From positions 1 through 46,663 of the forward strand of contig DATKRS010000032.1 of the NCBI GenBank assembly GCA_035532035.1: a stretch of 46,663 bases of DNA, in the 5' to 3' direction. Position numbers and translations under genes: made by a program. Origin of the DNA: Candidatus Dormiibacterota bacterium. Its GTDB lineage: Bacteria > Vulcanimicrobiota > Vulcanimicrobiia > Vulcanimicrobiales > Vulcanimicrobiaceae. This document shows, piece by piece, positions 1-17,311 of the stretch (position 1 is its first letter; every line of letters begins with the position of its first letter). The notes under the pieces were generated by a model. It had not been told where the DNA came from, made no database searches, and was given only the letters and a program-made list of their open reading frames with translations.

Positions 1-585
1 ATGTATCGCATCCAGGACAGCGACGCATTGCTGGTGGTCGATCCACAGAACGACTTCCTACCGGGCGGCAGTTTGGCCGTACCCGACGGCAATCGCATCT
101 TCGAGCCGATCAACCGGCTGATGCCGCTCTTCAGCTACGTCGTCGCGTCGCGCGACTGGCATCCGCGCGATCACGCGTTCTTCCAGGCGTACGGCGGCCC
201 GTGGCCCTTCCATTGCCTAGCCGGAACCTCGGGCGCCCAGTTCTCGCCGCTGCTGCACGCAGACGAGGTCGACGAAATCGTCAGCAAGGGCACCGACCCG
301 AAGACCGACGGCTACAGCGCCTTCGCCGGAACCGCGCTGACCGATCGTCTCCACGCGCACGGGATACGGCGCCTCTTTATCGCAGGCATCGCCACCGATT
401 ACTGCGTGCGGTGTACGACCCTGGACGCGCGCGCGGCCGGCTTCGACATCGTCGTCATCAGCGACGCGATCGCCGCCATCAACGCACGCCCGGGCGATGA
501 AGAGCGCGCAATCGCGGAGATGCGCGCGTGCGGCGCCGGTTTCACGGACTCGCATCACGTCGTCGCGGGTGACCAAGCGCGATGA
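1..585 (+). CDS. pncA: Nicotinamidase (isochorismatase family)
   Basis: Hydrolyses nicotinamide to nicotinate and ammonia in the cytosolic NAD salvage pathway. The 194-residue product has normal length for the family. The catalytic triad is visible as D14 (VVDPQNDF), K96 (SKGTD) and nucleophile C135 (ATDYCVRCT). Metal ligands typical of PncA appear as D52 and H54 in SRDWHP, with H58 or H71 (WPFHC, matching the family WPxHCVxGT) nearby. The ATG is the first base of the window, so an upstream start cannot be excluded, but the N-terminus already aligns with family starts. Its TGA overlaps the next gene's ATG (ATGA at 582-585), so it is translationally coupled to an NCS1 permease. The family call is secure; substrate preference between nicotinamide and similar amides is not proven. 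Confidence 0.93.
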   Translation: MYRIQDSDALLVVDPQNDFLPGGSLAVPDGNRIFEPINRLMPLFSYVVASRDWHPRDHAFFQAYGGPWPFHCLAGTSGAQFSPLLHADEVDEIVSKGTDPKTDGYSAFAGTALTDRLHAHGIRRLFIAGIATDYCVRCTTLDARAAGFDIVVISDAIAAINARPGDEERAIAEMRACGAGFTDSHHVVAGDQAR

Positions 586-1961
586 GCGAGGCACGCGTAT
601 ACAGGGATCAAGTCCTCGAGGTCGAGCCGACCGGCATCGAGCATGTACGCGACGATCAGCGCCACGGCAGTCCGCGCCATCTCTTCGGCGTGTGGTTTTC
701 CGCAAACGCCGAGATCGCGACCTGGATGGTCGGCCTCATCATCGCCGCGTCGTACGGCACCGATTTGCGCAGCGCCGCAGCCGGAATTCTGATCGGGAAT
801 CTCGCCGGGTTCGCCGTCCTCGGCGCACTCGCAACGATGGGGCCGCGCTACGGCGTGCCGCAAATGGTGGCGGGGCGGCTTGCCTTCGGGCGCAGCGGAA
901 ACGTCGCGCCCGCAACGCTCAGTTTCCTCGCCGGCGTCGGATGGTTCGCAATCAACACGGTCTTCGGCGCGTACGCGTTGCAAACGATCGCGGGATGGCC
1001 GTACCCCGCGGCGCTCGGCGTCATGCTCGCATTGCAAATCCTGATCGCGGTGTACGGCTACAACTTCATTCACCTCTTCGAGCGCGCGAGCGTCGTGCTG
1101 CTCGCGTTCGGCTTCCTGATCCTCGGCGTCGTGACGTTCTCACACGTACAATGGAACGCACCGTTCAATCCGCTCGCGCCGGCCGCCGGAGGAGGCCCGC
1201 TCGCAGGGTTCGTTTTCGCAACCGCACTCGCGTTCTCGTATGCGCTCGGATGGGTACCGTGTGCTTCGGACTACTCGCGCTACCTGCCCAGCACGACGAG
1301 CGCGCGCGCGGTGTGGTGGTACTCGTTCCTCGGCTGCGTCGTCTCGTGCGTCGTGCTCGAGATCATGGGCGCGGCCACGGTCACCGCCGTGTCGCACGGC
1401 TCCGCGCTTACGAACATGCTTCCGACGCAGGCGGTCTCCGTGCTCTTGCGCTCGGGGTGGGTTGCCAAGCTCGTGCTCTTTGCCGTCGTGCTGGGGACGC
1501 TGACGGCCAACTGCATGAACCTCTACTCCGGAGCCCTCGCGGCGCTCGTGGCGTTCAACATTCGCGTGAAGCGCGCGGCAGCCGCGCTCGCTGTCGGCGT
1601 GCTCGGAGCGCTGCTCGCGACCGGCGGCGCCGTGTGGAGCGATATGGCGACGTACTATACCAACTTCTTGTTGCTGCTCTCGTACTGGGCGTCGCCCTGG
1701 GCCGCCGTCGTGCTCGTCGATCTCTGGCTGCGCGGCCGCTCACAGGCCGACCCCGAGCGCGCGCCCCGTTGGCGGACGGGCATCGTTGCGTGGATCGCAG
1801 GATTGCTCGCCTCGACGCCTTTTTGGAACCAAGCCTGGTTTGTCGGACCTGTCGCGCACGCGTATCCGCAGCTCGGGGACGTTTCCTATTACGTCGGGTT
1901 TGTCGTCGCCGGTGCGCTCACGGCGCTCCTCCGCCGAGCCGAGAGCGTCAAGTTTGCGTAA
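582..1961 (+). CDS. NCS1-family permease (cytosine/purine/vitamin type)
   Basis: Integral membrane symporter of the nucleobase-cation-symport-1 family, 459 residues with about 12 hydrophobic segments. The family hallmark FGVWFSANAEIATW lies at residues 35-48, and a second conserved stretch (FGRSGNVAPATLSFLAGVGWF) follows. Family members carry cytosine, purines, allantoin, hydantoin, thiamine or pyridine vitamins across the inner membrane. The start overlaps the stop of the nicotinamidase gene, so co-translation suggests import of nicotinamide, nicotinate or another amide that PncA handles. That substrate is inference only. No frameshift is seen and the ends look intact. Confidence 0.88.
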   Translation: MSEARVYRDQVLEVEPTGIEHVRDDQRHGSPRHLFGVWFSANAEIATWMVGLIIAASYGTDLRSAAAGILIGNLAGFAVLGALATMGPRYGVPQMVAGRLAFGRSGNVAPATLSFLAGVGWFAINTVFGAYALQTIAGWPYPAALGVMLALQILIAVYGYNFIHLFERASVVLLAFGFLILGVVTFSHVQWNAPFNPLAPAAGGGPLAGFVFATALAFSYALGWVPCASDYSRYLPSTTSARAVWWYSFLGCVVSCVVLEIMGAATVTAVSHGSALTNMLPTQAVSVLLRSGWVAKLVLFAVVLGTLTANCMNLYSGALAALVAFNIRVKRAAAALAVGVLGALLATGGAVWSDMATYYTNFLLLLSYWASPWAAVVLVDLWLRGRSQADPERAPRWRTGIVAWIAGLLASTPFWNQAWFVGPVAHAYPQLGDVSYYVGFVVAGALTALLRRAESVKFA

Positions 1962-1982
1962 AGCACGCGTTTGGATTGCTCC

Positions 1983-2000
1983 TCGGCTAAAGCTCGGCTA
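1983..2000 (+). promoter_or_regulatory. Tandem heptamer repeats, candidate SARP/BTAD operator
   Basis: TCGGCTA occurs at 1983-1989 and again at 1994-2000, exactly 11 bp apart with a 4-bp spacer; the identical core extends to CTCGGCTAA. Direct heptamers with 11-bp periodicity are the classical recognition pattern of SARP/OmpR-type winged-helix activators. They lie 63 bases before the start of the BTAD-domain gene at 2064, so autoregulation is plausible. I could not find a convincing -10 hexamer at the usual spacing. The pattern is seen directly; the function is inferred. Confidence 0.4.
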
Positions 2001-2063
2001 AGCGGCAGACGATGCTGTAAGCACGGACGCCTGCGAAGCGGGCGCCAACCGGTGGAGGTCAGG

Positions 2064-3551
2064 ATGCCGACGGGGGTCGCGATCCCAGCGCGAATGCCCA
2101 GGAAGCCGACGTACGTTCTTCGACGCGAGCGCCTTCTGGCATGGCTCGAGCGCTACGCGCAAACGCCGTTGCGGGCAATCGTTGCTCCCGCGGGCTTCGG
2201 TAAGAGCGTCTTGTTGTCCGAGTATGCTGCGGCACGGCCTGCGTGTTTTTATATTGCGATCGGACCGTTGCGCCGGCTGACCGACCGGCCCGCAATGGTG
2301 CTGTGCGAGCGCCTGGGCATGTCGCCCGAATGCGGCCTATCCGTCGAATCGGCGGTCGCGGCGTTCGAGGCGCTTCCTCCGTGCGAGATCGCGATCGACG
2401 AGATCGACGCGCTGCGCCGCGACGATCGGGAAGCGCTCGCGCAGATCGTCGCGCAGATGCCCGAGCACGTTCGCGTCATCCTTGCCGGGCGCTCGCGCGA
2501 GAGCGTCGCCGATCCCCGCCGTCTGCTCGACGGCGGTACCGCTCTCCTCGACGCATCGAGCTTGGCATTCACCGCCGGCGAAATCGGCGAGCTTGCCGCG
2601 CTCGCAGCCGTGGAAGCGCAGAGCGCGCAGGTGACGCAGCTCGCGCGCGAGAGCGAAGGCTGGCCGCTCGTCGTCGCCGGCGCGATTCGCGCAGCAGCCG
2701 ACGCCGGCCGGACGCTCGCCGACGCGATGCGCCTGTGGAATGCCGAGCGGGGCGTCTCGCTGCGCGAAATGATCTTGGCGGATGCCGCGGCCTCCGATCT
2801 CGGCCCCGCGCTCGTGCGCCTCTGTTCGAGCGAAGGACTCGTCGCCGCCGACGACCTCGGCGCGCTCGAGCGTGCCGGCCTCTACGTCGTGCGCTCCGAG
2901 TACGGGTACGCGCTGCTTCGCGCGGTTGCGAGCGCCTTCAATCCGCATGGCGAAACGCTCGATCTCGCTGCGCTCCCCGACGCAAGCCCCATGTTTGTTC
3001 GCCTCCTCGGCGAGTTCGAGGTGCGCATCGGCGGGCGCCGTATCGAATGGATTCGGCGCAAGGACGCGGCGCTCTTCAAGCATCTGCTCCTCGCGCCGCT
3101 CGGTCGCGCCTCTCGCAGCGAGCTTTGCGAGCTCTTCTGGCCAACGCACGACCGCCAACAGGCCGGCCAGAACCTGCGCACGACGTGCAGCAACATCCGC
3201 GCCGCGCTTCGCCGGTGCTTGCCCGAGTCGCGCGTCGATCTCTACTTCCGCTGCGAGGGCGGCGACGTCGTCCTTCGCACCGATCTCGCTGCCACCGATC
3301 TCGCTGCTTTCACCGCGCACGTGGCGGCGGCTCGCGAGGCGATGACCGCTCAGCATCTCGATCGCGCCGCCGAAGATTATGAAGCCGCGCGCGCGCTCTA
3401 CCGCGGGCCGCTGATCCTCGAGCCGCCGACGGAGGCTAATGCCGCGGTCGCCCGCGACGTCGACGAGAGCTTCAACGAGATCCAGCGCCATGTGACCGCG
3501 TTGCGCCGGCTGCGCGCCGACGTGGTTCCTCTGCGCTCGGTCGTCGCCTAA
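2064..3551 (+). CDS. MalT-like ATPase/BTAD (SARP-type) transcriptional regulator
   Basis: Predicted cytosolic transcription activator of 495 residues. The N-terminal part is a STAND/MalT-like NTPase with Walker A APAGFGKS (41-48) and Walker B IAIDEID (109-115). It is followed by a helical region that includes a LARESEGWPL segment (193-202) typical of MalT/LuxR-family ATPases. From about 310 (MFVRLLGEFEVRIGG) comes an OmpR-like winged helix, then a BTAD region with RAAEDYEAARALYRGPLI. This order is reversed relative to Streptomyces SARPs, where the DNA-binding/BTAD part is N-terminal. The long TPR array usual in MalT-type proteins is missing. The start is set at ATG 2064 because GGTGGAGG sits at 2051-2058; a longer in-frame reading from 1971 has no such site and would overlap the candidate operator. 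Target genes are unknown. Confidence 0.8.
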   Translation: MPTGVAIPARMPRKPTYVLRRERLLAWLERYAQTPLRAIVAPAGFGKSVLLSEYAAARPACFYIAIGPLRRLTDRPAMVLCERLGMSPECGLSVESAVAAFEALPPCEIAIDEIDALRRDDREALAQIVAQMPEHVRVILAGRSRESVADPRRLLDGGTALLDASSLAFTAGEIGELAALAAVEAQSAQVTQLARESEGWPLVVAGAIRAAADAGRTLADAMRLWNAERGVSLREMILADAAASDLGPALVRLCSSEGLVAADDLGALERAGLYVVRSEYGYALLRAVASAFNPHGETLDLAALPDASPMFVRLLGEFEVRIGGRRIEWIRRKDAALFKHLLLAPLGRASRSELCELFWPTHDRQQAGQNLRTTCSNIRAALRRCLPESRVDLYFRCEGGDVVLRTDLAATDLAAFTAHVAAAREAMTAQHLDRAAEDYEAARALYRGPLILEPPTEANAAVARDVDESFNEIQRHVTALRRLRADVVPLRSVVA

Positions 3552-3560
3552 GGGAAACTC

Positions 3561-3890
3561 TCAGGAGGCAACGGTCGGCGTCACGAGGTCGCCGGCCCGG
3601 ATCCCGCGGCGCTCGATCGAGCCCGCAGCGAGTTCCACGACGCGCGACGCCCCGACGCAGCCGACGAACGGGCGCCACGGCCGGACGTTTGCGACCGCAC
3701 GCACCACCCGGTCGCCGGCATCGAGGAAGACGACGTCGATCGGTACGCGCATGAAGAACGTGTGAATCGACGAGCACCGGTCGAAGAGCATGCCTTCGTC
3801 CTCTCCTACCTGCGTGCGCCCGATCAGCCCCAACGTGCGCTGTACGAACGAGCGCGCGGGCGTAGCGCGGATACTGTGCGAGGTTGCCAC
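3561..3890 (-). CDS. DUF192 family protein
   Basis: Small protein of 109 residues with the DUF192 core: QRTLGLIGR near the N-terminus, then DEGMLF, HTFFMRVPIDVVFLD and the C-terminal ASRVVELAAGSIERRGIRAGD. Its biochemical role is not established, although DUF192 genes often sit beside Tad pilus genes. Here it is the distal gene of the minus-strand Tad operon, 161 bases after a prepilin peptidase. The start is GTG at 3890 without a clear Shine-Dalgarno, and there is no signal peptide from this start, whereas some family members are secreted. It converges with the BTAD regulator, leaving 9 bases between stop codons. Confidence 0.75.
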   Translation of the reverse strand: MATSHSIRATPARSFVQRTLGLIGRTQVGEDEGMLFDRCSSIHTFFMRVPIDVVFLDAGDRVVRAVANVRPWRPFVGCVGASRVVELAAGSIERRGIRAGDLVTPTVAS

Positions 3891-4020
3891 TGCATTCTCG
3901 ATTTTGCCAATCGGACGGATTCAGACCTTCCACGAGGCATCCGGCCCAACGGCTTCGAGCCCCTGCGGGGCGATCGCGGGGGCGCCACAGCATTCGGATC
4001 AACAAGCAATGCCGGGATTC

Positions 4021-4039
4021 ACTCCGTCTTAGCCGGAGT
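4021..4039 (-). other. Stem-loop in the spacer before the DUF192 gene
   Basis: The 161-base spacer 3891-4051 contains a perfect 6-bp stem (ACTCCG at 4021-4026 with CGGAGT at 4034-4039) and further GC-rich self-complementary stretches toward 3950-3990. On the minus strand it follows the prepilin peptidase stop. No T tract follows, so it is not a standard Rho-independent terminator. It could reduce read-through or stabilise mRNA ends. I see no open frame of merit and no recognisable riboswitch or tRNA in the spacer. Confidence 0.3.
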
Positions 4040-4051
4040 GGTTACGCATGG

Positions 4052-4660
4052 TCAGCTATGGACGCTGAACCCGAACGCGAGGAGCATCGCCACCACGATG
4101 TACGGAGCGAACGCAATCGGCTGCGTGCCCTTGTTCCGTATTACCGAAACCACGGTTGCGGCAAAGCACGCCACCGCAAGAGCCAGCAGCGACGTCTGCA
4201 AGCCGAGCGCTGCGCCGGTCAGCATCGCGAGCTTCGCGTCGCCCCACCCCATCCCGCGGCCGCGTGAGAACGTTGCTGCGAGCGCGAAGGCGGCGAAGAC
4301 GACCACCGCTGAGATCGCAATCCACCACGTGTGATGGAGCAGAACGCCGAGCGCGATGATGCCGAGCGGAGCGAGCGTGAACGCGTCCGGCACGATGCCG
4401 GTACGCGCGTCGCTATACCACGCGCCGACGAGCGGAACGCCGAGCAGAGCGATCGTGCCGAGCTGCGCGAGGTTTCCTCCGCGCGCGGCGACGACGATAC
4501 CGAGGAGCGCAAAGAGCACGATCGGCACGGCAGGATGCAGCCACATGGGCGCCGGACCATCGTCGTGGCGCTGAGTGCGCGCACAGACGAAATCGGCCGC
4601 GATGATGCCGCACGTCGCCGCGCACGCATAGATGAACGCCCAGGCGAGTATGCCGACCAT
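4052..4660 (-). CDS. A24 prepilin peptidase, operon-distal copy
   Basis: Inner-membrane aspartic protease of the type IV prepilin peptidase family, 202 residues with about seven hydrophobic segments. The two catalytic aspartates are present in YSDARTGIVPD and in the GxGD-type motif GMGWGDAKL. It should cleave Flp-type or TadE/F-type prepilins after the conserved glycine. No N-terminal cysteine-rich methylase domain exists, as in TadV/CpaA. Its ATG overlaps the tadC stop (TGATG at 4658-4662). This is the second peptidase in the same operon; the other is at 9308-9859, and both look catalytically intact. It may be specialised for pseudopilins. Confidence 0.85.
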   Translation of the reverse strand: MVGILAWAFIYACAATCGIIAADFVCARTQRHDDGPAPMWLHPAVPIVLFALLGIVVAARGGNLAQLGTIALLGVPLVGAWYSDARTGIVPDAFTLAPLGIIALGVLLHHTWWIAISAVVVFAAFALAATFSRGRGMGWGDAKLAMLTGAALGLQTSLLALAVACFAATVVSVIRNKGTQPIAFAPYIVVAMLLAFGFSVHS

Positions 4661-5505
4661 CAGTGGTAAATATACCTCGCGAGAACTCCGCCGAAGATCA
4701 TGATGAAGAGCGACGGCAGCATGAAGAGCGCCATGGGAAAGATCAACTTATTCGAAAGCGCTGCCGCCAGCTCTTCCGCGCGCATGATGCGCCGGTCGCG
4801 CGAGTCGGCTGCAAGTTCTTCGATGACGTGCGTTATCGATGCTCCGACGCGCTCGGATTGCACGAGTGCCGTGATGACGGTCGTCAGATCCGGCTCGCGC
4901 ACGCGCGATGCCATCGCGGTCAGCGCCTCGGCGCGCGAGCGCCCCAGCCGTACGTCCTGCAACGCCGTGCGCATCTCGTCACCTAGCGCTCCGTGCAAGC
5001 CCTCCGCAGCAACCGAGATGGCAGCGTTCAGCGCGACGCCCGCCTCGACCGTGCTCGACAGCAGGTCGAGAAAGTCGGGCAGCGCGCGGCGGATTTCGGT
5101 CTTCCGCCGGTTGATCGTGCCCGCGAGCTCGCCAAAGGGACGATAGAAGCCGAATCCTGCAAGCGCCGCTACGAGCAGCAGCATCGCCGTCGACGTTTGG
5201 TGCAGCAGGAGCATGGCTAGGAACCCGATGCCGGTGCCGACCGCGCAATAGACGCCGGCGCGTGCGAAGAGCTTTGCCGGCGTGACGTCGTACCAGCCCG
5301 CCTCTTGCAGGCGCACCTCGAGTCGATCGCGCCGCTGATCGTTGAGCAGGCGCTGAAAGATCGTTCCGGATTCGTCGGCGCCTCCCATTCCTGCCGAGAC
5401 GTTGATCGCGGCAAGCTGCGCCTTCACATCGCTGTTCGAGCTCGTCATCGCGTACACGATGACGCCCACGGCGCCGACCACGAGAAGAATCAACAGCACG
5501 ACCAT
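4660..5505 (-). CDS. tadC: Tad pilus inner-membrane platform protein TadC
   Basis: GspF/T2SSF-domain membrane protein of the Flp pilus assembly platform, which works with TadB and the TadA ATPase. From ATG 5505 the product has 281 residues: an immediate N-terminal transmembrane helix (MVVLLILLVVGAVGV), a central pair of hydrophobic segments, a T2SSF helical domain beginning near RRALPDFLDLLSSTVEAGVALNAA, and a C-terminal helix (LFMLPSLFIMIFGGVLARYI). The start is chosen at 5505 because it forms a TGATG overlap with the tadB stop; a longer reading from ATG 5544 would add 13 residues inside tadB. It is coupled at its 3' end to the prepilin peptidase gene by another TGATG. Confidence 0.87.
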   Translation of the reverse strand: MVVLLILLVVGAVGVIVYAMTSSNSDVKAQLAAINVSAGMGGADESGTIFQRLLNDQRRDRLEVRLQEAGWYDVTPAKLFARAGVYCAVGTGIGFLAMLLLHQTSTAMLLLVAALAGFGFYRPFGELAGTINRRKTEIRRALPDFLDLLSSTVEAGVALNAAISVAAEGLHGALGDEMRTALQDVRLGRSRAEALTAMASRVREPDLTTVITALVQSERVGASITHVIEELAADSRDRRIMRAEELAAALSNKLIFPMALFMLPSLFIMIFGGVLARYIYH

Positions 5506-6365
5506 CAGATGTCGAGCCTCGAGAGCTTGCCGAAGACGATCCATCCCAGGGTGATCAAACCTACGACGACGCCCAAGCAGAGCCGGCCGAGCAGCGTGTA
5601 GAGCAAGCCCGCGCGCATGTCAGGCTCGAAGGTCAGGATAAAGATGCCGACGCCGATGGGGAGCGCCGAGATGATGTACTTCGTAAAGCGAGCCTCGGAG
5701 GTCAGCGCGGCGATCTTACGATTCAGTTTGCGGCGCTGCTTGATCGTCTCCGCCAAGTTCTCCAGCACTTTGCCGAGGTTGCCGCCCGTCTGACTCTGGA
5801 TCCGAATCGAGCGCGTCATCATCGCAAGCTCGCTCGAAGGCATGCGGTCGGCGAGCTGGTCGAGGGCGTCGTAGATGCTGACGCCGATTTGGGTCTGGCT
5901 CAGCACCCGCGAGAACTCGATCCGCGACGGATCCGGCATGTCGCTCACGACGGTGACGAGTGCTTGCCGCAAGCCGAGCCCAACCCGCAGAGCGCCCGTG
6001 ATCAAACGCAGTACGATCTCCAGCTGATTATTGAAATGATTGAGGCGCCGTAGCACCTTGAGATTGACGTACCCCTTGACGCCCACGTATGCGATCCACG
6101 ACGTGCCGGCGAGCAAGAGGAGACCGACGATTGGCGACGGCTTGAGGAGAAACGCCAGAACGCCCCACGGAATGATCGCCGCTGCGATCACCATGAGCGC
6201 AAGCTCTTCGGCCTTGATCGGAATCGCCGCGCGCTCGAGCAACCTGCGGTACGGCTCCAGCCGCAGCGCGACCCACGCGACGAGCCGGTCCCAGAACGCG
6301 ACGCAGCCGATCGCGACTGCGCCCGCGACGCCGAAGAAGACGATGAACGGTGCGACCGAGGTCAT
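5505..6365 (-). CDS. tadB: Tad pilus inner-membrane platform protein TadB
   Basis: Second GspF-type platform protein, 286 residues. It has an N-terminal helix (PFIVFFGVAGAVAIGCVAF), two central hydrophobic segments (residues about 55-95), a T2SSF domain with FNNQLEIVLRLITGALRVGLGLRQAL and QTGGNLGKVLENLAETIKQR, and two C-terminal helices. TadB and TadC are thought to form the inner-membrane base that couples ATPase motion to pilin extraction. It follows the TadZ-TadA gene by 13 bases and overlaps tadC. TadB normally has about 300 residues, so the length is usual. Confidence 0.88.
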   Translation of the reverse strand: MTSVAPFIVFFGVAGAVAIGCVAFWDRLVAWVALRLEPYRRLLERAAIPIKAEELALMVIAAAIIPWGVLAFLLKPSPIVGLLLLAGTSWIAYVGVKGYVNLKVLRRLNHFNNQLEIVLRLITGALRVGLGLRQALVTVVSDMPDPSRIEFSRVLSQTQIGVSIYDALDQLADRMPSSELAMMTRSIRIQSQTGGNLGKVLENLAETIKQRRKLNRKIAALTSEARFTKYIISALPIGVGIFILTFEPDMRAGLLYTLLGRLCLGVVVGLITLGWIVFGKLSRLDI

Positions 6366-6378
6366 TCCGGGATCTCCG

Positions 6379-8457
6379 CTACCACGCGGCGACGGCGAGC
6401 TGCATCTGGCTCAGCCGCTCGATCTGGAAGCTGACGCCGTACTCTTCGAGGCGGCGCAGGAAGTTCGGCTGGACGCCCGTGTAGACGAAGCTTCCGACGA
6501 GCTTGCCTTCTTTGTCGAGGCCGTGTTGGTCGAAGCGCAGGATCTCTTGCGTCGAAATGATGTCGCCCTCCATGCCGACGACTTCGGTGACGGACGTGAC
6601 CTTGCGGCTTCCGTCGCGCAAGCGCGACGTCTGCACGATCACGTCGACGGCTCCCGAGACCTGCTCGCGAATCGCGCGCACCGGGATGTCGAAGCCCGCC
6701 ATCAGCACCATCGTCTCGATGCGCGACAGGCAGTCACGCGGCGTGTTCGCGTGCACGGTAGTCAGCGATCCGTCGTGACCGGTGTTCATTGCCTGGAGCA
6801 TGTCCAGCGCTTCACCGCCACGGCACTCGCCGACGACGATGCGGTCCGGACGCATGCGCAGCGAGTTGCGTACGAGCTCGCGAATCGGGATCGCGCCCCG
6901 CCCTTCGACGTTGGCCGGACGCGCCTCCATCCGAACCACGTGATCCTGATGGAGCTGCAGTTCCGCCGCGTCTTCGATCGTGATGATGCGCTCGTTGACG
7001 GGAATGAACCCCGAGAGGACGTTCAGCAGCGTCGTCTTGCCGGAGCCGGTGCCGCCGCTGATGACGATGTTCAAGCGTGCCTCGACGGCCGCTCGCAATA
7101 GGTCGGCCATCTCCGGCGTCAGCGAGCCTTTGGAGACGAGGTCGTCGGCCTTGAGCCGGTCCTTCGCGAAGCGCCGAATGGTGATCGTCGGATAATCGAT
7201 CGAGAGGGGCTCGACCGTCGCGTTGACGCGCGAGCCGTCGGGAAGGCGTGCGTCGACCATCGGAACCGCTTCGTCGATGTGTCGCCCGATCGGCGAGATG
7301 ATGCGTTCGATGACCAAGCGCACCTGGTGTTGGTCGTTGAAGCGCATGCCCGAAAGCTCGATGCGGCCGCGACGCTCTACGTAGATACGATCCGGGCCGT
7401 TGACCATGATTTCAGTGACCTCGGGGTCGCTCATGAGATCTTCGAGCGGGCCTAGGCCGAGACTCTCGTGGATGATGTCTTGCCGCAGACGGGCGATCTC
7501 CTCGGCCGATCCGAGCCCCGGATGACGCGCTACGGCCTCGGTGACGGTGCTCTCGACCTCGGCGCGAAGCTCCTCCAAGCGCAGCGGGTCTGCGTTGGAG
7601 CCGATCGCAGCGAAGTCGATGCGGCGCGAGAGCTCGCGATGAATCTCCGCCTTCAGCGCCGACCATTTGTTCTTGTGCTGGTCCGATGCGGTATCCGCGG
7701 CGCGCTTCTGGACGCCGTTGTTCGACACATCGACTTTCGTGCGATCGACCATGCGCCGCTCGCCGATCGGCGTGCTCGTCGATGGTTGCAGGACGAGCAG
7801 GTCCGCGGGCTGCGGGCCGCTCTTGAGCCGATCCACGACGGCGGCGACCGCCTTTTCGAACTTCTTGTCATCGAGCGGGGGAATCTCGCCCATTATCTTG
7901 AGCTTCAGCGCGCGCTCGATCTCCGCGGTGGGAACGCGATTGTGCGGGTCGCGCGTGACGACGACCGCGCTTAAGCGCGACTCCGGCACGCCGAACTTCA
8001 TCAACTCGAGCTGCATCACCCGCGCGCCGGTAACGCCGAGCATGGACGGCTCGACGACGAGCAAGAACTGCGCTGCGCGAACCGCGAACGGGCGCACGGC
8101 TGCAGCGAACGGCTGCGCCGCGTCGACGATGGCAAACTTCGTCGCAGCGGAGATCGAGCGCAGAAGCTGCTCGACCTTGTCCGGTTTGATCGTGAACCCG
8201 TCGTGGATCGATCCTGCCAGCTCGAAGAGCGTGAGATTCGGCCCGACCTCCGCCAGCGCGAAATCGTCTTGCGCGCGCCGCGCGTCGACCTTCGCGATCG
8301 CGTTGAACAGCACGGCACCGGCGCGCCGCCCGGACAGATCGCCGTCGACGAGCAGCGTCGGTCCGCCGTCCTTCGCGAACGTCGTCGCCACGTGGGTCGC
8401 GAAGGTCGTCGCACCGACTCCGCCTTTGGAGCCGATGACGAAGAAAATCTCAGGCAT
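6379..8457 (-). CDS. TadZ/CpaE-TadA/CpaF fusion: pilus localisation ATPase joined to assembly motor ATPase
   Basis: Single 692-residue protein with two ATPase modules. Residues 1-225 are a ParA/MinD-fold TadZ-like domain with deviant Walker A KGGVGATT (11-18) and switch region LLVDGDLSG (35-43). The receiver-like N-terminal domain of typical CpaE is absent. A charged linker (about 230-275) leads to a full TadA/CpaF secretion ATPase: Walker A GGTGSGKTT (468-476), Asp box TIEDAAEL (493-500), Walker B RIVVGECRGGEA (539-550) and His box TGHDGSLTTVHAN (559-571). TadZ normally marks the assembly site and TadA powers pilin polymerisation; fusion would fix them 1:1. The reading frame is continuous across the junction and I see no internal start with a clear ribosome site there. 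It lies between cpaB (5 bases) and tadB (13 bases). Confidence 0.9.
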   Translation of the reverse strand: MPEIFFVIGSKGGVGATTFATHVATTFAKDGGPTLLVDGDLSGRRAGAVLFNAIAKVDARRAQDDFALAEVGPNLTLFELAGSIHDGFTIKPDKVEQLLRSISAATKFAIVDAAQPFAAAVRPFAVRAAQFLLVVEPSMLGVTGARVMQLELMKFGVPESRLSAVVVTRDPHNRVPTAEIERALKLKIMGEIPPLDDKKFEKAVAAVVDRLKSGPQPADLLVLQPSTSTPIGERRMVDRTKVDVSNNGVQKRAADTASDQHKNKWSALKAEIHRELSRRIDFAAIGSNADPLRLEELRAEVESTVTEAVARHPGLGSAEEIARLRQDIIHESLGLGPLEDLMSDPEVTEIMVNGPDRIYVERRGRIELSGMRFNDQHQVRLVIERIISPIGRHIDEAVPMVDARLPDGSRVNATVEPLSIDYPTITIRRFAKDRLKADDLVSKGSLTPEMADLLRAAVEARLNIVISGGTGSGKTTLLNVLSGFIPVNERIITIEDAAELQLHQDHVVRMEARPANVEGRGAIPIRELVRNSLRMRPDRIVVGECRGGEALDMLQAMNTGHDGSLTTVHANTPRDCLSRIETMVLMAGFDIPVRAIREQVSGAVDVIVQTSRLRDGSRKVTSVTEVVGMEGDIISTQEILRFDQHGLDKEGKLVGSFVYTGVQPNFLRRLEEYGVSFQIERLSQMQLAVAAW

Positions 8458-8462
8458 CTCCT

Positions 8463-9311
8463 TTATCTCGTCGAGCTGCCCGAGGTGTCCGGGGCGCCGA
8501 TCTGATCGCCTTCGATGATCTCGACCGATGAATACGGCAGCGCGCGGCGCGGGCCGGGAGCGGGTCCGCTCGAGGTAACCGGCGGCGGGGGAGCCGCAAA
8601 GGTCTGCGATGCGAACACGAGGTCCTGACTCGAGCCGCTGGGATCGCCCTTCGGACGCAGCGCCAATCGCAGCGTCGTGTTGAGATCGGCCATCGCGAGC
8701 AAGTCCGCCTGATTCGGCGTGACCTCGAGCGTCACCGAGCGCGGAACGTTGGGAACGGGCTGCGATCCCGGGGTGGGCGTCGAGGGCGCCGAGGGCGCGA
8801 GCTCGCCGCCGACGGCGAAGACCGTGACGTCGTGCAGAATGATCGAGGCCGTCGGCTGGGCGGCTCCGACGCGCGGGGGCACGGCGATCACGTCGACCTT
8901 GTCGCCCGGCTCTACGAGACCCGAAACGTCACGCACCTCGTCGACGGGAATCGAGATCGCTCGATAGCCGCGCATGAGGTGCAGGCCGCGTACCGGCGCC
9001 TCGTCTTTGCTCGTATTCGAGGACGTAATGGCCGCGCCGGCCGGAATCGGGCCCAGCGCGACGTCGCCGGAGATGTCGCTCGGGGACGAGAGCGCGTTGG
9101 AGTCGACGTCGCTGCTCGGACGCATGACCACGTTCACCATCGAGCTCGTGACCGGCGTGTGCGCGGGAATGTCCGCGATCGCGACGAGCACCGGTCTTGG
9201 CGGCGCCGACGCGACGTTTCTATTCGACGACGACAGATAGTTGAAGGTCAAGAGTCCGGCGCCGGCGGCGAGCACGGCCGCCACGATGAGCAGCGTATTG
9301 CGTTTGTTCAT
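8463..9311 (-). CDS. cpaB: Flp pilus assembly protein CpaB/RcpC
   Basis: Periplasmic protein of 282 residues anchored by one N-terminal helix (LLIVAAVLAAGAGLLTFNYL). A SAF domain follows (PVLVAIADIPAHTPVTSSMV, about 39-58), then the RcpC/CpaB core with GYRAISIPVDEVRDVSGLVEPGDKVDVI. The C-terminus is proline/serine rich. CpaB partners the secretin and is needed for Flp pilus biogenesis. Its ATG overlaps the upstream prepilin peptidase stop (ATGA at 9308-9311) and it precedes the TadZ-TadA fusion by 5 bases. Length is typical. Confidence 0.88.
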   Translation of the reverse strand: MNKRNTLLIVAAVLAAGAGLLTFNYLSSSNRNVASAPPRPVLVAIADIPAHTPVTSSMVNVVMRPSSDVDSNALSSPSDISGDVALGPIPAGAAITSSNTSKDEAPVRGLHLMRGYRAISIPVDEVRDVSGLVEPGDKVDVIAVPPRVGAAQPTASIILHDVTVFAVGGELAPSAPSTPTPGSQPVPNVPRSVTLEVTPNQADLLAMADLNTTLRLALRPKGDPSGSSQDLVFASQTFAAPPPPVTSSGPAPGPRRALPYSSVEIIEGDQIGAPDTSGSSTR

Positions 9312-14778: not shown

Positions 14779-15452
14779 GCCTGCGCCGGCGCCGCCACGG
14801 AGAGCGCGGCCAAGCGACGATCGAGACGGCGATCTTTCTGCCGGCATTCCTGCTCGTGCTCTTCGGCGTGATCTGGACCGTGCAGTCCTCGGTGATCAGC
14901 GAGCGCGCGCAAATCGCAGTGCGCTTCAGCGGCCTCGTCTCCGACGAGGCCAACCCGTATCAGCAGTACAGCCTCGGCGCGCTCTACGACGGGCTTCCCG
15001 GCATCGCCCCCACCGAGATCTACACGTGCGCCACGCCGGGGCCGGATGCCCTGACGAACGACCCCACCAACGGCACGTTCCCGGGGCCGAGATCGCCCTC
15101 GTTCTTCCAACCGACCGGCGTCGTGAGCGGCACATGCACGCCGGGCCCGACGCATCTCTCCGGCGGCACGATGGCATCGCCGATGCTCTTCGTGCACACG
15201 CAGTCGACCGTCACGACGGCCGTATCGGTACCGTCGTACCTGCAAAGCGCGCTCGGGGCAAACCAAAACTTGAGCGCGACGCAGAACTTCTTCGACGGCC
15301 CGGACGTACAGACGATCTTGACGTGTTACGCGGAGCTGGGTACCGCGGTCGAGCAGTCTCTCCAGCACACGGCGCTCAACGTCTCGAGCCCCGCAACGCC
15401 GCTGCCGGATTCACCGAATACCGCCGCGCTGACGCTCTCGGGATCCTGCTAA
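14775..15452 (+). CDS. TadE-like pseudopilin, second copy
   Basis: 225-residue TadE-family protein. The leader VSLRRRRHGERG precedes QATIETAIFLPAFLLVLFGVIWTVQSSVI, a typical prepilin-like helix with glutamate at the expected place. The extracytoplasmic part (about 45-225) has four cysteines and many Pro/Thr/Ser residues. Start GTG 14775 gives the same GTGA coupling as its neighbours; GTG 14769 is an alternative. It is the last gene of the secretin arm and its stop codon overlaps that of the convergent unknown membrane protein. Confidence 0.75.
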   Translation: MSLRRRRHGERGQATIETAIFLPAFLLVLFGVIWTVQSSVISERAQIAVRFSGLVSDEANPYQQYSLGALYDGLPGIAPTEIYTCATPGPDALTNDPTNGTFPGPRSPSFFQPTGVVSGTCTPGPTHLSGGTMASPMLFVHTQSTVTTAVSVPSYLQSALGANQNLSATQNFFDGPDVQTILTCYAELGTAVEQSLQHTALNVSSPATPLPDSPNTAALTLSGSC

Positions 15453-17311
15453 CGCGCGTAGACCGTCAGCGGCTCCAGGACGAGCTGATCGGCAGTGCCC
15501 CGCGTAAACGACGCCACGATGACATAGCGACGGCCGGCCGTTGCCGGCGGCGCCAGAAACTCCACTGCCGCTGCATTGAGCGGGATCGAGCGCTGCGCAA
15601 AGGACGTTCCATCTCGACCTTCTAGCGTCAGGCGCAAGTTCGCGGGATGCGCGAGCACGACCACGGAGAAGCGGTGCGCCGCAACGACGCGGCCCGGTAC
15701 GCGCATCAGCTGCGCGGCATCGAACATCGGTGGAACGACAGCCGGCGTCATCGGTGCGGGAAGCGTCTGCGGAATGACGAGTACGCCGACCGACGCGCGC
15801 GCCATCGAACGGCCACGAGCGATCCGCAGCAGCACTTGATACTGCGTCGGAGCGACGACGCGTGGCGCGGTGAGCACCGCGACGCCGCTCGCGCTGTACG
15901 GTACGGCCACAACGGCGATCTGCGCGGCATCGACGAGCGCGATGCTTCCGCCCTGCGCGTGAGCAACGTAGTGGACGGTGATCGGCGCCCCTGACGCCGC
16001 AACGCCCGGATCGACCTCGAGTGCGTCGACGGAGGCGCGCGTCGCCGCCACGTGGCCGAGCGCTCTCAGCACGAGCGACGATTGCGTACTGCCGAACGGC
16101 CCGGTCGCGAGCAGGGCGACGCGATACGTTCCACGCGGGCCGCGCGTAGGAAACGTAAACGAGCCGCGCCCGATCCGCACGGTACCGCTTGCGACACGAA
16201 CGCGGCCGCGCGATACGACGTAGCGCGCGGCACCGATACCCGAGAGGGCGTAGTTTGCGGTTACCGTGTCACCGGCGAGCACCTGCGCCGGCACGGCAAA
16301 CGCCTGGATCGTCGGTCTGAGCACGCGGTACGCGACCGCGGCAATTGCAAGCGCGACGACGAGCGCTGCCAGCGCGACGGCAAGACGAACGGCGAGGGGA
16401 ACGGGAACGTCTGCTTGCGCGGACGCGCGCAAGGACGAGTTTTCCATGAGCAGCTGCAGGTTTCGCAGACGCCACGGGAAGCGCAACGGGGCCAAGACGG
16501 CGACCGCGACCGCCGATTGCGGATGAATCCAAAAGGAACCCGGCGAGGTGGGGACGGTCGCATCGCGCGTCCGGCCCGTCACCGTACAGAGAAGCGGCTC
16601 GTGCGCCTGATTGACGACTTTTGCGACGAAATCGGTCGAGAAGAAGCGGCGCTGCGTGCACTCGAGCGTTCCCATGACGACGCGCCGCTCGTCGAGCACC
16701 GCGGCGAAGCCGTGCGTCTCGATGCCGCGCACCGGCTCGGACGCGCGCGGTGGCCGCGGGGCTACGGGCAGTATCGGCGCGGGAGCCGGCTCCGGCGCAG
16801 GAGCGGGATGCGGCGCAGGAGCGGGTGCTGCATCCACCGGCTTTGCTCGCGGTTTCGGGCGCTTTCGGCGTTCGTATACGACGACGCCGGCAAGCAACGC
16901 GACGAAGAGGGCTGCGACGGCAAGCGAGATCGCGGCCGCGCGCACGCCGTCGTCGTCGAGCGGCGCCTCGAAGGCGCAAGCAAAGGATGTTCCGCAGATG
17001 CGTACGAACGCGGCGCGCTCCGAACGGCCGAATCGCGACACTGCAAAGAGAAAGCCGAGCTCCGCATGCGGCTCGCACGTCAGATCGAGATCGGTGTGCA
17101 GCAGGGCGCTAGAGTCCAGCTTGGTGCCGGGAGTACACCGCACGGGCTCCTCGGTATCGTTGACGACATGCACGCGAAGAACGATGCGGCTCAACTCTTT
17201 TCGAAGAACCGAGATCGTGCAGCGAATTGCCGAGGCGGGTGAGGTATCGACGCACTCGCCCGAGGCTGCAGTGCGGAGAGAAGAGACGTCCAGCCTCGCG
17301 GCGGCCCTCAC
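15449..17311 (-). CDS. Two-helix membrane protein with duplicated beta domain, function unknown
   Basis: 620-residue protein I do not recognise. Residues about 35-115 form a beta-rich domain, then a helix (124-146) with RRKRPKPRAK behind it. A Pro-Ala-rich linker follows (160-192), then a second domain (about 205-300), a second helix (305-330) and an extracellular-type beta-rich region (335-620) with Ig-like strand patterns. The first and second domain-plus-helix units resemble each other (VHVVNDTEEPVRCT with AKVVNQAHEPLLCT), which suggests internal duplication. Start GTG 17311 is uncertain; no Shine-Dalgarno is clear and the first 30 residues may not be translated. It converges with the Tad secretin arm (overlapping stops) and diverges from rsmI by 62 bases. 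Confidence 0.6.
   Translation of the reverse strand: MRAAARLDVSSLRTAASGECVDTSPASAIRCTISVLRKELSRIVLRVHVVNDTEEPVRCTPGTKLDSSALLHTDLDLTCEPHAELGFLFAVSRFGRSERAAFVRICGTSFACAFEAPLDDDGVRAAAISLAVAALFVALLAGVVVYERRKRPKPRAKPVDAAPAPAPHPAPAPEPAPAPILPVAPRPPRASEPVRGIETHGFAAVLDERRVVMGTLECTQRRFFSTDFVAKVVNQAHEPLLCTVTGRTRDATVPTSPGSFWIHPQSAVAVAVLAPLRFPWRLRNLQLLMENSSLRASAQADVPVPLAVRLAVALAALVVALAIAAVAYRVLRPTIQAFAVPAQVLAGDTVTANYALSGIGAARYVVSRGRVRVASGTVRIGRGSFTFPTRGPRGTYRVALLATGPFGSTQSSLVLRALGHVAATRASVDALEVDPGVAASGAPITVHYVAHAQGGSIALVDAAQIAVVAVPYSASGVAVLTAPRVVAPTQYQVLLRIARGRSMARASVGVLVIPQTLPAPMTPAVVPPMFDAAQLMRVPGRVVAAHRFSVVVLAHPANLRLTLEGRDGTSFAQRSIPLNAAAVEFLAPPATAGRRYVIVASFTRGTADQLVLEPLTVYAR

Follow-up and report, generated by a model that had tools for sequence, protein, structure and literature searches.

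When a gene for a transcriptional regulator is preceded by a perfect direct repeat, the question arises which stretch of DNA the regulator reads. In the window considered here (the whole stretch of 46,663 nucleotides that was analysed), this question is raised by a gene with an OmpR/SARP-type DNA-binding domain and by two identical TCGGCTA heptamers with a 4-bp spacer, 63 bases in front of it. The initial annotation took this pair for a SARP-type operator, suggested autoregulation, and offered the motif as a key to further targets. Both the repeat and the type of gene were described accurately: TCGGCTA-AAGC-TCGGCTA stands exactly at 1983-2000, within the 102 bp that separate a permease gene from the regulator ATG (2064), and the Pfam BTAD match, the AfsR profile and the EmbR/AfsR folds agree on the nature of the encoded domain (Table 1). 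The proposal as a whole is only partly supported: the kind of regulator and the kind of operator were right, but the repeat was wrong.

Table 1. Coordinates of the features discussed (window positions, unless a locus is named)
Feature	Position	Strand	Basis or occurrence
Permease gene before regulator	582-1961		Pfam Transp_cyt_pur
Predicted operator box GTCAAGT-TTGC-GTAAAGC	1947-1964	+	upstream of regulator in 8/8 genus genomes
Reported repeat TCGGCTA-AAGC-TCGGCTA	1983-2000	+	present; identical pair in 0/7 other genus genomes
TAAA element within reported copy 1	1988-1991	+	8/8; 41-43 bp after box start
GWCGAT hexamer	2008-2013	+	8/8; 19-20 bp after TAAA start
Ribosome-binding site GGAGG	2054-2058	+	read from sequence
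Regulator gene, 495 aa	2064-3551	+	Pfam BTAD above cut-off; genus orthologues
MalT-like STAND ATPase module, about residues 7-300	2082-2963	+	MalT 8bob, E 2e-19 (profile search)
SARP core (OmpR-type winged helix + BTAD), about residues 307-487	2982-3524	+	AfsR 8hvr, E 1.5e-6
199-aa regulators without ATPase	L037 1460-2059; L038 307-906	-	in G002 and G005; box kept

The regulator is a STAND-ATPase/SARP hybrid, in which an AfsR/EmbR-type core lies behind a MalT-like head. Its BTAD match of 27.9 bits exceeds the Pfam cut-off of 22.1, and the NCBIfam models for MalT and for SARP both match far below their cut-offs. Comparison of folds, made on an AlphaFold model (pLDDT 82.4, pTM 0.58), related the ATPase module to CED-4, MalT and archaeal ATPase folds with Z of 16-19 (MalT 16.6), and the SARP core to EmbR (2ff4, Z 17.5 over 177 residues) and AfsR (8k60, Z 16.4). 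The winged helix followed by BTAD, a trait of the SARP family, is present, as is the STAND ATPase head of the MalT/LAL type; the C-terminal LuxR-type HTH of the latter is absent, none being found among the Pfam matches at E <=1. The SARP core is N-terminal in AfsR and PimR (PMC10936776, PMC10972967), and this family trait is absent from the 495-aa form, with its core behind the ATPase; the 199-aa forms of G002 and G005 alone consist of little but the core. In the profile-search alignment, with the residue numbers given in the available text of PMC10936776, two AfsR contacts are kept, namely the base-contacting Thr88 (Thr373 here) and Arg94 (Arg379), and Arg92, which reads a T of the afs box, is replaced by Asn377. 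Of 30 related records, 22 bear the name Candidatus Eremiobacterota or Eremiobacteria.

Comparison of eight genomes of the genus (G000-G007) draws attention to another repeat, which starts 36 bp upstream of the reported one and reads GTCAAGTTTGCGTAAAGC in the window. The consensus of this box, GTAAAGC-N4-GTAAAGC, has the 11-bp period and the geometry of the reported repeat; the copy in the window is imperfect (5/7), and the stop codon of the permease gene (1959-1961) falls within it. The pattern GTMAAGWYTSSGTAA, built from five genomes, has exactly one match per genome in six of the eight, each time upstream of the regulator, the match in G006 being out of sample, as this genome was not used in building the pattern. 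In the two genomes lacking a match, G002 and G005, variants of the box occur (GTAAAGATTTTGTAA and GTAAAAATTTCGTAA), each separated by 66 bp from the regulator ATG, and with these counted the box precedes the regulator in all eight genomes. The genes on the 5' side differ among congeners while the box persists: a purine/cytosine-type permease in G000 and G003, a DUF192-like frame in G001 (judged by eye against the DUF192 gene of the window), and an ABC-2 permease in G002 (by Pfam), with look-alike frames in G004, G005 and G006. A terminator-like site at 1955-1969 overlaps the box (1 versus 0.2 expected in a scan of 1850-2150).

Beyond the genus, a forward-strand matrix scan of 23 regions upstream of regulator homologues gave nothing above 11.5, and a search of 31 such regions from other genera for a shared period-11 repeat yielded 18 pairs against 16.1 expected. 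One place stands apart: before the regulator homologue of G041, a member of another genus, an inverted match to the box, GTAAAGCGACCGTAAAGG, is found at 1299-1316 of L011 on the minus strand with a score of 19.7, just after an ABC-2 permease gene; such a permease gene also precedes the regulator in several members of the genus. Four non-genus places in 735,176 positions score at least 18 (both strands, whole loci, overlaps counted repeatedly). This outgroup match can be regarded as suggestive.

The box also recurs elsewhere in the genomes of the genus. Most of the matches elsewhere ran on as TAAAGC, with bases outside the search pattern, hence the fuller consensus given above. With at most one mismatch, this consensus has 16 sites in the eight genomes versus 3 for the reversed pattern; with at most two, the excess vanishes (76 versus 94 for the reversed control in the eight genomes). 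A looser box, GTMAAGNYTNNGTAA, with one mismatch gave 12 matches in the genome of the window versus 11 for its reversed control and was set aside. Fourteen of the 16 sites are at promoter positions and fall into six gene groups: protein A (5), family B (4), LigD-like (2), the regulator (1, in G006), a TadE/G-like gene (1) and an acyltransferase (1). Several of these sites lie inside longer, mechanically derived open frames, so that position was judged by the start common to homologues; Pfam names stand behind the LigD-like protein of G005, the TadE/G-like protein of G003 and the acyltransferase of G004. In the LigD group the gene diverges from the site and is with, or resembles, a LigD primase-polymerase, and no counterpart of the TadE/G-like gene of G003 turned up in the remaining seven genomes. 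The two remaining sites, within coding frames of G005 (C203) and G007 (C211), were judged to be chance occurrences, as were box matches in L073, which we take to be an antisense 16S-like stretch, and in L050, presumably a pyruvate-kinase-like frame.

Protein A (459 aa, with one hydrophobic segment by eye) carries the box in all seven genus upstream regions scanned and also in G003, where the box precedes a fragment at a contig end, which makes eight genomes of eight; the site in G007, outside the training set of the box matrix, scores 20.0. None of 20 regions scanned upstream of protein A outside the genus contains the box. Family B is a multi-copy, secreted-type family, with a boxed copy in seven of the eight genomes, G006 being without a clear B; the sites in G001 (18.9) and G007 (21.3) were likewise outside the training set. 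The family B protein of G003 contains a CarboxypepD_reg domain (Pfam), and in G002, G003, G004 and G005 the boxed B adjoins an EF-G-like GTPase frame resembling BipA/TypA, identified by Pfam in G002. Not every copy is boxed: those at C93 of G003 and C52 of G004 are unboxed, and for the best-scoring copies of G002 (C61) and G005 (C68) only a weak site of 15.9 was found, other copies being boxed in these two genomes. A matrix made from 10 A and B sites only ranks position 1947 first in the window, at 19.4 with the next site at 13.2, and scores the remaining regulator sites between 14.4 and 25.7, those of G007 (14.4) and G004 (15.8) being low. Elsewhere in the window, the box matrix pointed to nothing strong.

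Judging from these sequence comparisons, the box at 1947-1964 is probably the operator of the regulator, which would control its own gene and a small regulon with protein A and family B as its core. The C-terminal winged helix would bind the head-to-tail GTAAAGC-N4-GTAAAGC, with two protomers aligned along the same face of the DNA at a distance of one helical turn. This arrangement is suggested by the SARPs, whose protomers occupy adjacent positions on repeats spaced by one turn and make contact with RNA polymerase (PMC10936776). The site in its own promoter would provide for autoregulation, the sites before protein A and a member of family B would define the core of the regulon, presumably by activation rather than repression, and, on the model of AfsR, MalT and STAND proteins in general, the SARP core would be gated by the ATPase. 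The earlier expectation of a SARP-type operator thus holds insofar as a direct repeat of 11-bp period is likely, and autoregulation is still the best reading, in both cases through the box and not through the TCGGCTA pair.

Could the box belong to somebody else? Another OmpR/PhoB-type regulator might read it, the STAND-SARP gene being merely one of the targets. OmpR-type proteins in general can bind direct repeats of 11-bp period, and the other boxed genes are not adjacent to the regulator within the genus. In Streptomyces, moreover, the AfsR site at afsS is also recognized by PhoP, according to the available text of PMC10972967, which provides a precedent for such overlap. We nevertheless consider this explanation, the main alternative, less likely, because only the regulator and protein A have the box in all eight genomes, and their homologues are neighbours elsewhere. 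Specifically, among 28 non-genus genomes with a protein A homologue, 22 also have a regulator homologue, and in 10 of these the two adjoin on one strand (G010, G014, G015, G023, G028, G029, G035, G044, G045 and G048), mostly with A leading, the order being reversed in G015, in G048 and at one of the two G045 places. Furthermore, no box was found before protein A in three genomes without a regulator match (G017, G021 and G037), and the two other BTAD-like loci of the genome (one of them under the Pfam cut-off) show no site above 12.5 in the 6-kb stretches scanned.

Several features of the neighbourhood may be recorded here. Beside the A homologue of G028, at C62:45880-47217, lies a regulator homologue with one in-frame TAA, possibly a decayed copy. 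In the window itself, a paralogue of protein A without a Pfam family is encoded about 12 kb from the regulator (15449-17311, minus strand), and similarly placed matches to it occur in G003 and G004. A DUF192 gene and Tad/Flp pilus-type genes, namely those for a prepilin peptidase, T2SSF, T2SSE with an N-terminal ParA-like part, and RcpC/CpaB, converge on the regulator (3561-9311, minus strand).

The TCGGCTA pair itself might still be the operator, or a lineage-specific secondary one, PimR being described as having two (available text of PMC5930380). The pair has the exact 11-bp geometry and is even longer than first noted, CTCGGCTAA-AG-CTCGGCTAA at 1982-2001, so that nine bases are identical at period 11 (CTCGGCTAA at 1982-1990 and 1993-2001). 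A random leader would rarely contain it: when the 102-bp intergenic sequence was shuffled 20,000 times by dinucleotides, a period-11 run of at least 7 appeared in 0.58% and one of at least 9 in 0.045% (p about 0.0005), a run of at least 9 at any period of 10-33 appeared in 0.8%, and no other period-11 run of at least 9 occurs in the 46.7-kb window. The repeat thus exceeds casual chance in this leader, with the reservation that a repeat might have been noticed at many other places or spacings. Its 3' end, in addition, is 7 bp before the hexamer GACGAT, the form that GWCGAT takes in the window, which is near the SARP spacing if this hexamer is the -10 element. Read in another register, the repeat gives CTAAAGC-TCGG-CTAAGCG, which resembles the box only poorly (score 4.6).

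Conservation speaks against the pair. Between the window and its closest relative, G003 (86% protein identity), the 81-bp stretch 1947-2027 is near-invariant, with three substitutions, at 1984, 1997 and 2004, and the first two of these hit one TCGGCTA heptamer each. The six further congeners have no TCGGCTA-type pair, the numbers of bases common to both heptamer positions in the eight genomes being 7, 5, 2, 2, 1, 2, 3 and 4 of 7. Copy 2 is unconserved, with 0.46 bits per column versus 1.64 for the box, and the 1.35 bits of copy 1 are due to the TAAA element that overlaps it. The pair is a single copy in the 2.25-Mb genome with up to one mismatch allowed, and its 20-mer with up to three; the genome scan thus revealed no frequent copies in coding regions, which the initial annotation had named as a refuting outcome, and, with no second copy anywhere, the motif predicts no targets. 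As an operator the TCGGCTA pair is therefore poorly supported and very improbable; we regard it as a coincidence at the level of the species, and one of its halves happens to fall on a conserved element resembling part of a core promoter. Next to a repeat that is conserved though less perfect, an exact one may strike the eye and yet be a decoy.

The two conserved elements downstream of the box could be parts of the promoter, TAAA possibly as a -10 or -35 element and GWCGAT possibly as a core-promoter element; a sigma-70 scan of 1850-2150 found no promoter. That the box is itself a sigma-factor element or another promoter part is hardly credible, for all the regular spacing of 41-43 bp from box to TAAA and 19-20 bp on to GWCGAT at the regulator promoters, because the box precedes A and B without this arrangement (by eye), has an 11-bp period, and is matched in inverted orientation before the G041 homologue. 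Further downstream in the leader, an RNA hairpin is predicted at 2025-2046, just 5' of the ribosome-binding site; hairpins in this place are seen in G000, G001, G003 and G006 and are not convincing in G004 or G007. Rfam reported zero families at gathering score in the whole window, and an lncRNA match near the repeat was discarded as sub-threshold (11.2 bits versus 70).

The forms of the regulator without the ATPase also bear on the reading of the box. In G002 and G005, which by their record names come from one common sequencing project, the regulator comprises the SARP core and a short N-terminal peptide that by eye resembles the N-terminus of the long form. A 16-row tree of the core puts both forms inside the genus clade (support 100/99), though at no firm position within it, and, since all nine rows from outside the genus are of the long form, the simplest explanation is that the ATPase was lost. 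The retention of the box by these forms points to the SARP core as its reader. More tentatively, we suggest that the regulator runs genes of the surface or secreted type, not antibiotic genes, and that the head, having been deleted in one lineage while the operator, the core and the targets stayed, would be a removable gate. If so, the natural loss of the head would amount to a truncation experiment done by nature.

How does this regulator relate to known systems? With MalT of Escherichia coli it has the N-terminal STAND ATPase module in common; the C-terminus of MalT is a LuxR-type HTH, and here the SARP core stands in its place. EmbR of Mycobacterium tuberculosis has the same winged helix and BTAD fold; it carries an FHA domain and, to our knowledge, has no STAND ATPase. 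A parallel in composition is AfsR, the large SARP of Streptomyces coelicolor, which likewise unites winged helix, BTAD and a STAND-type ATPase in one chain and has an operator of two 11-bp direct repeats, like the geometry of the box (PMC10936776). However, the ATPase of AfsR is C-terminal, whereas here it is N-terminal with no TPR part seen, and the heptamer here is GTAAAGC. The distances may differ as well: in SARPs as described, the 3' repeat is 8 bp from the -10 element, whereas 23 bp lie between the end of the box and TAAA and 43 bp between it and GWCGAT, so that neither of these candidates for a -10 element is within 8 bp. PimR, like other SARP-LAL regulators, also combines a SARP core with an ATPase part and uses heptamers with 4-bp spacers, and its main operator avoids the -35 element, departing from the usual overlap (available text of PMC5930380); its domain order is inverted relative to that of the regulator, its heptamer is CGGCAAG, and its role is in antibiotic biosynthesis. 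In the open-licence SARP literature, as far as its available text goes, SARPs are actinomycete regulators, nearly all for antibiotic genes, and Eremiobacterota were absent among the matches listed. What is new here is the conserved box, the small set of genes predicted to be under its control and the forms that have naturally lost the head: in the little-studied phylum Ca. Eremiobacterota, a SARP core is placed behind a MalT-type head, and its predicted operator and targets, along with a natural version lacking the head, make both operator reading and ATPase gating accessible to experiment.
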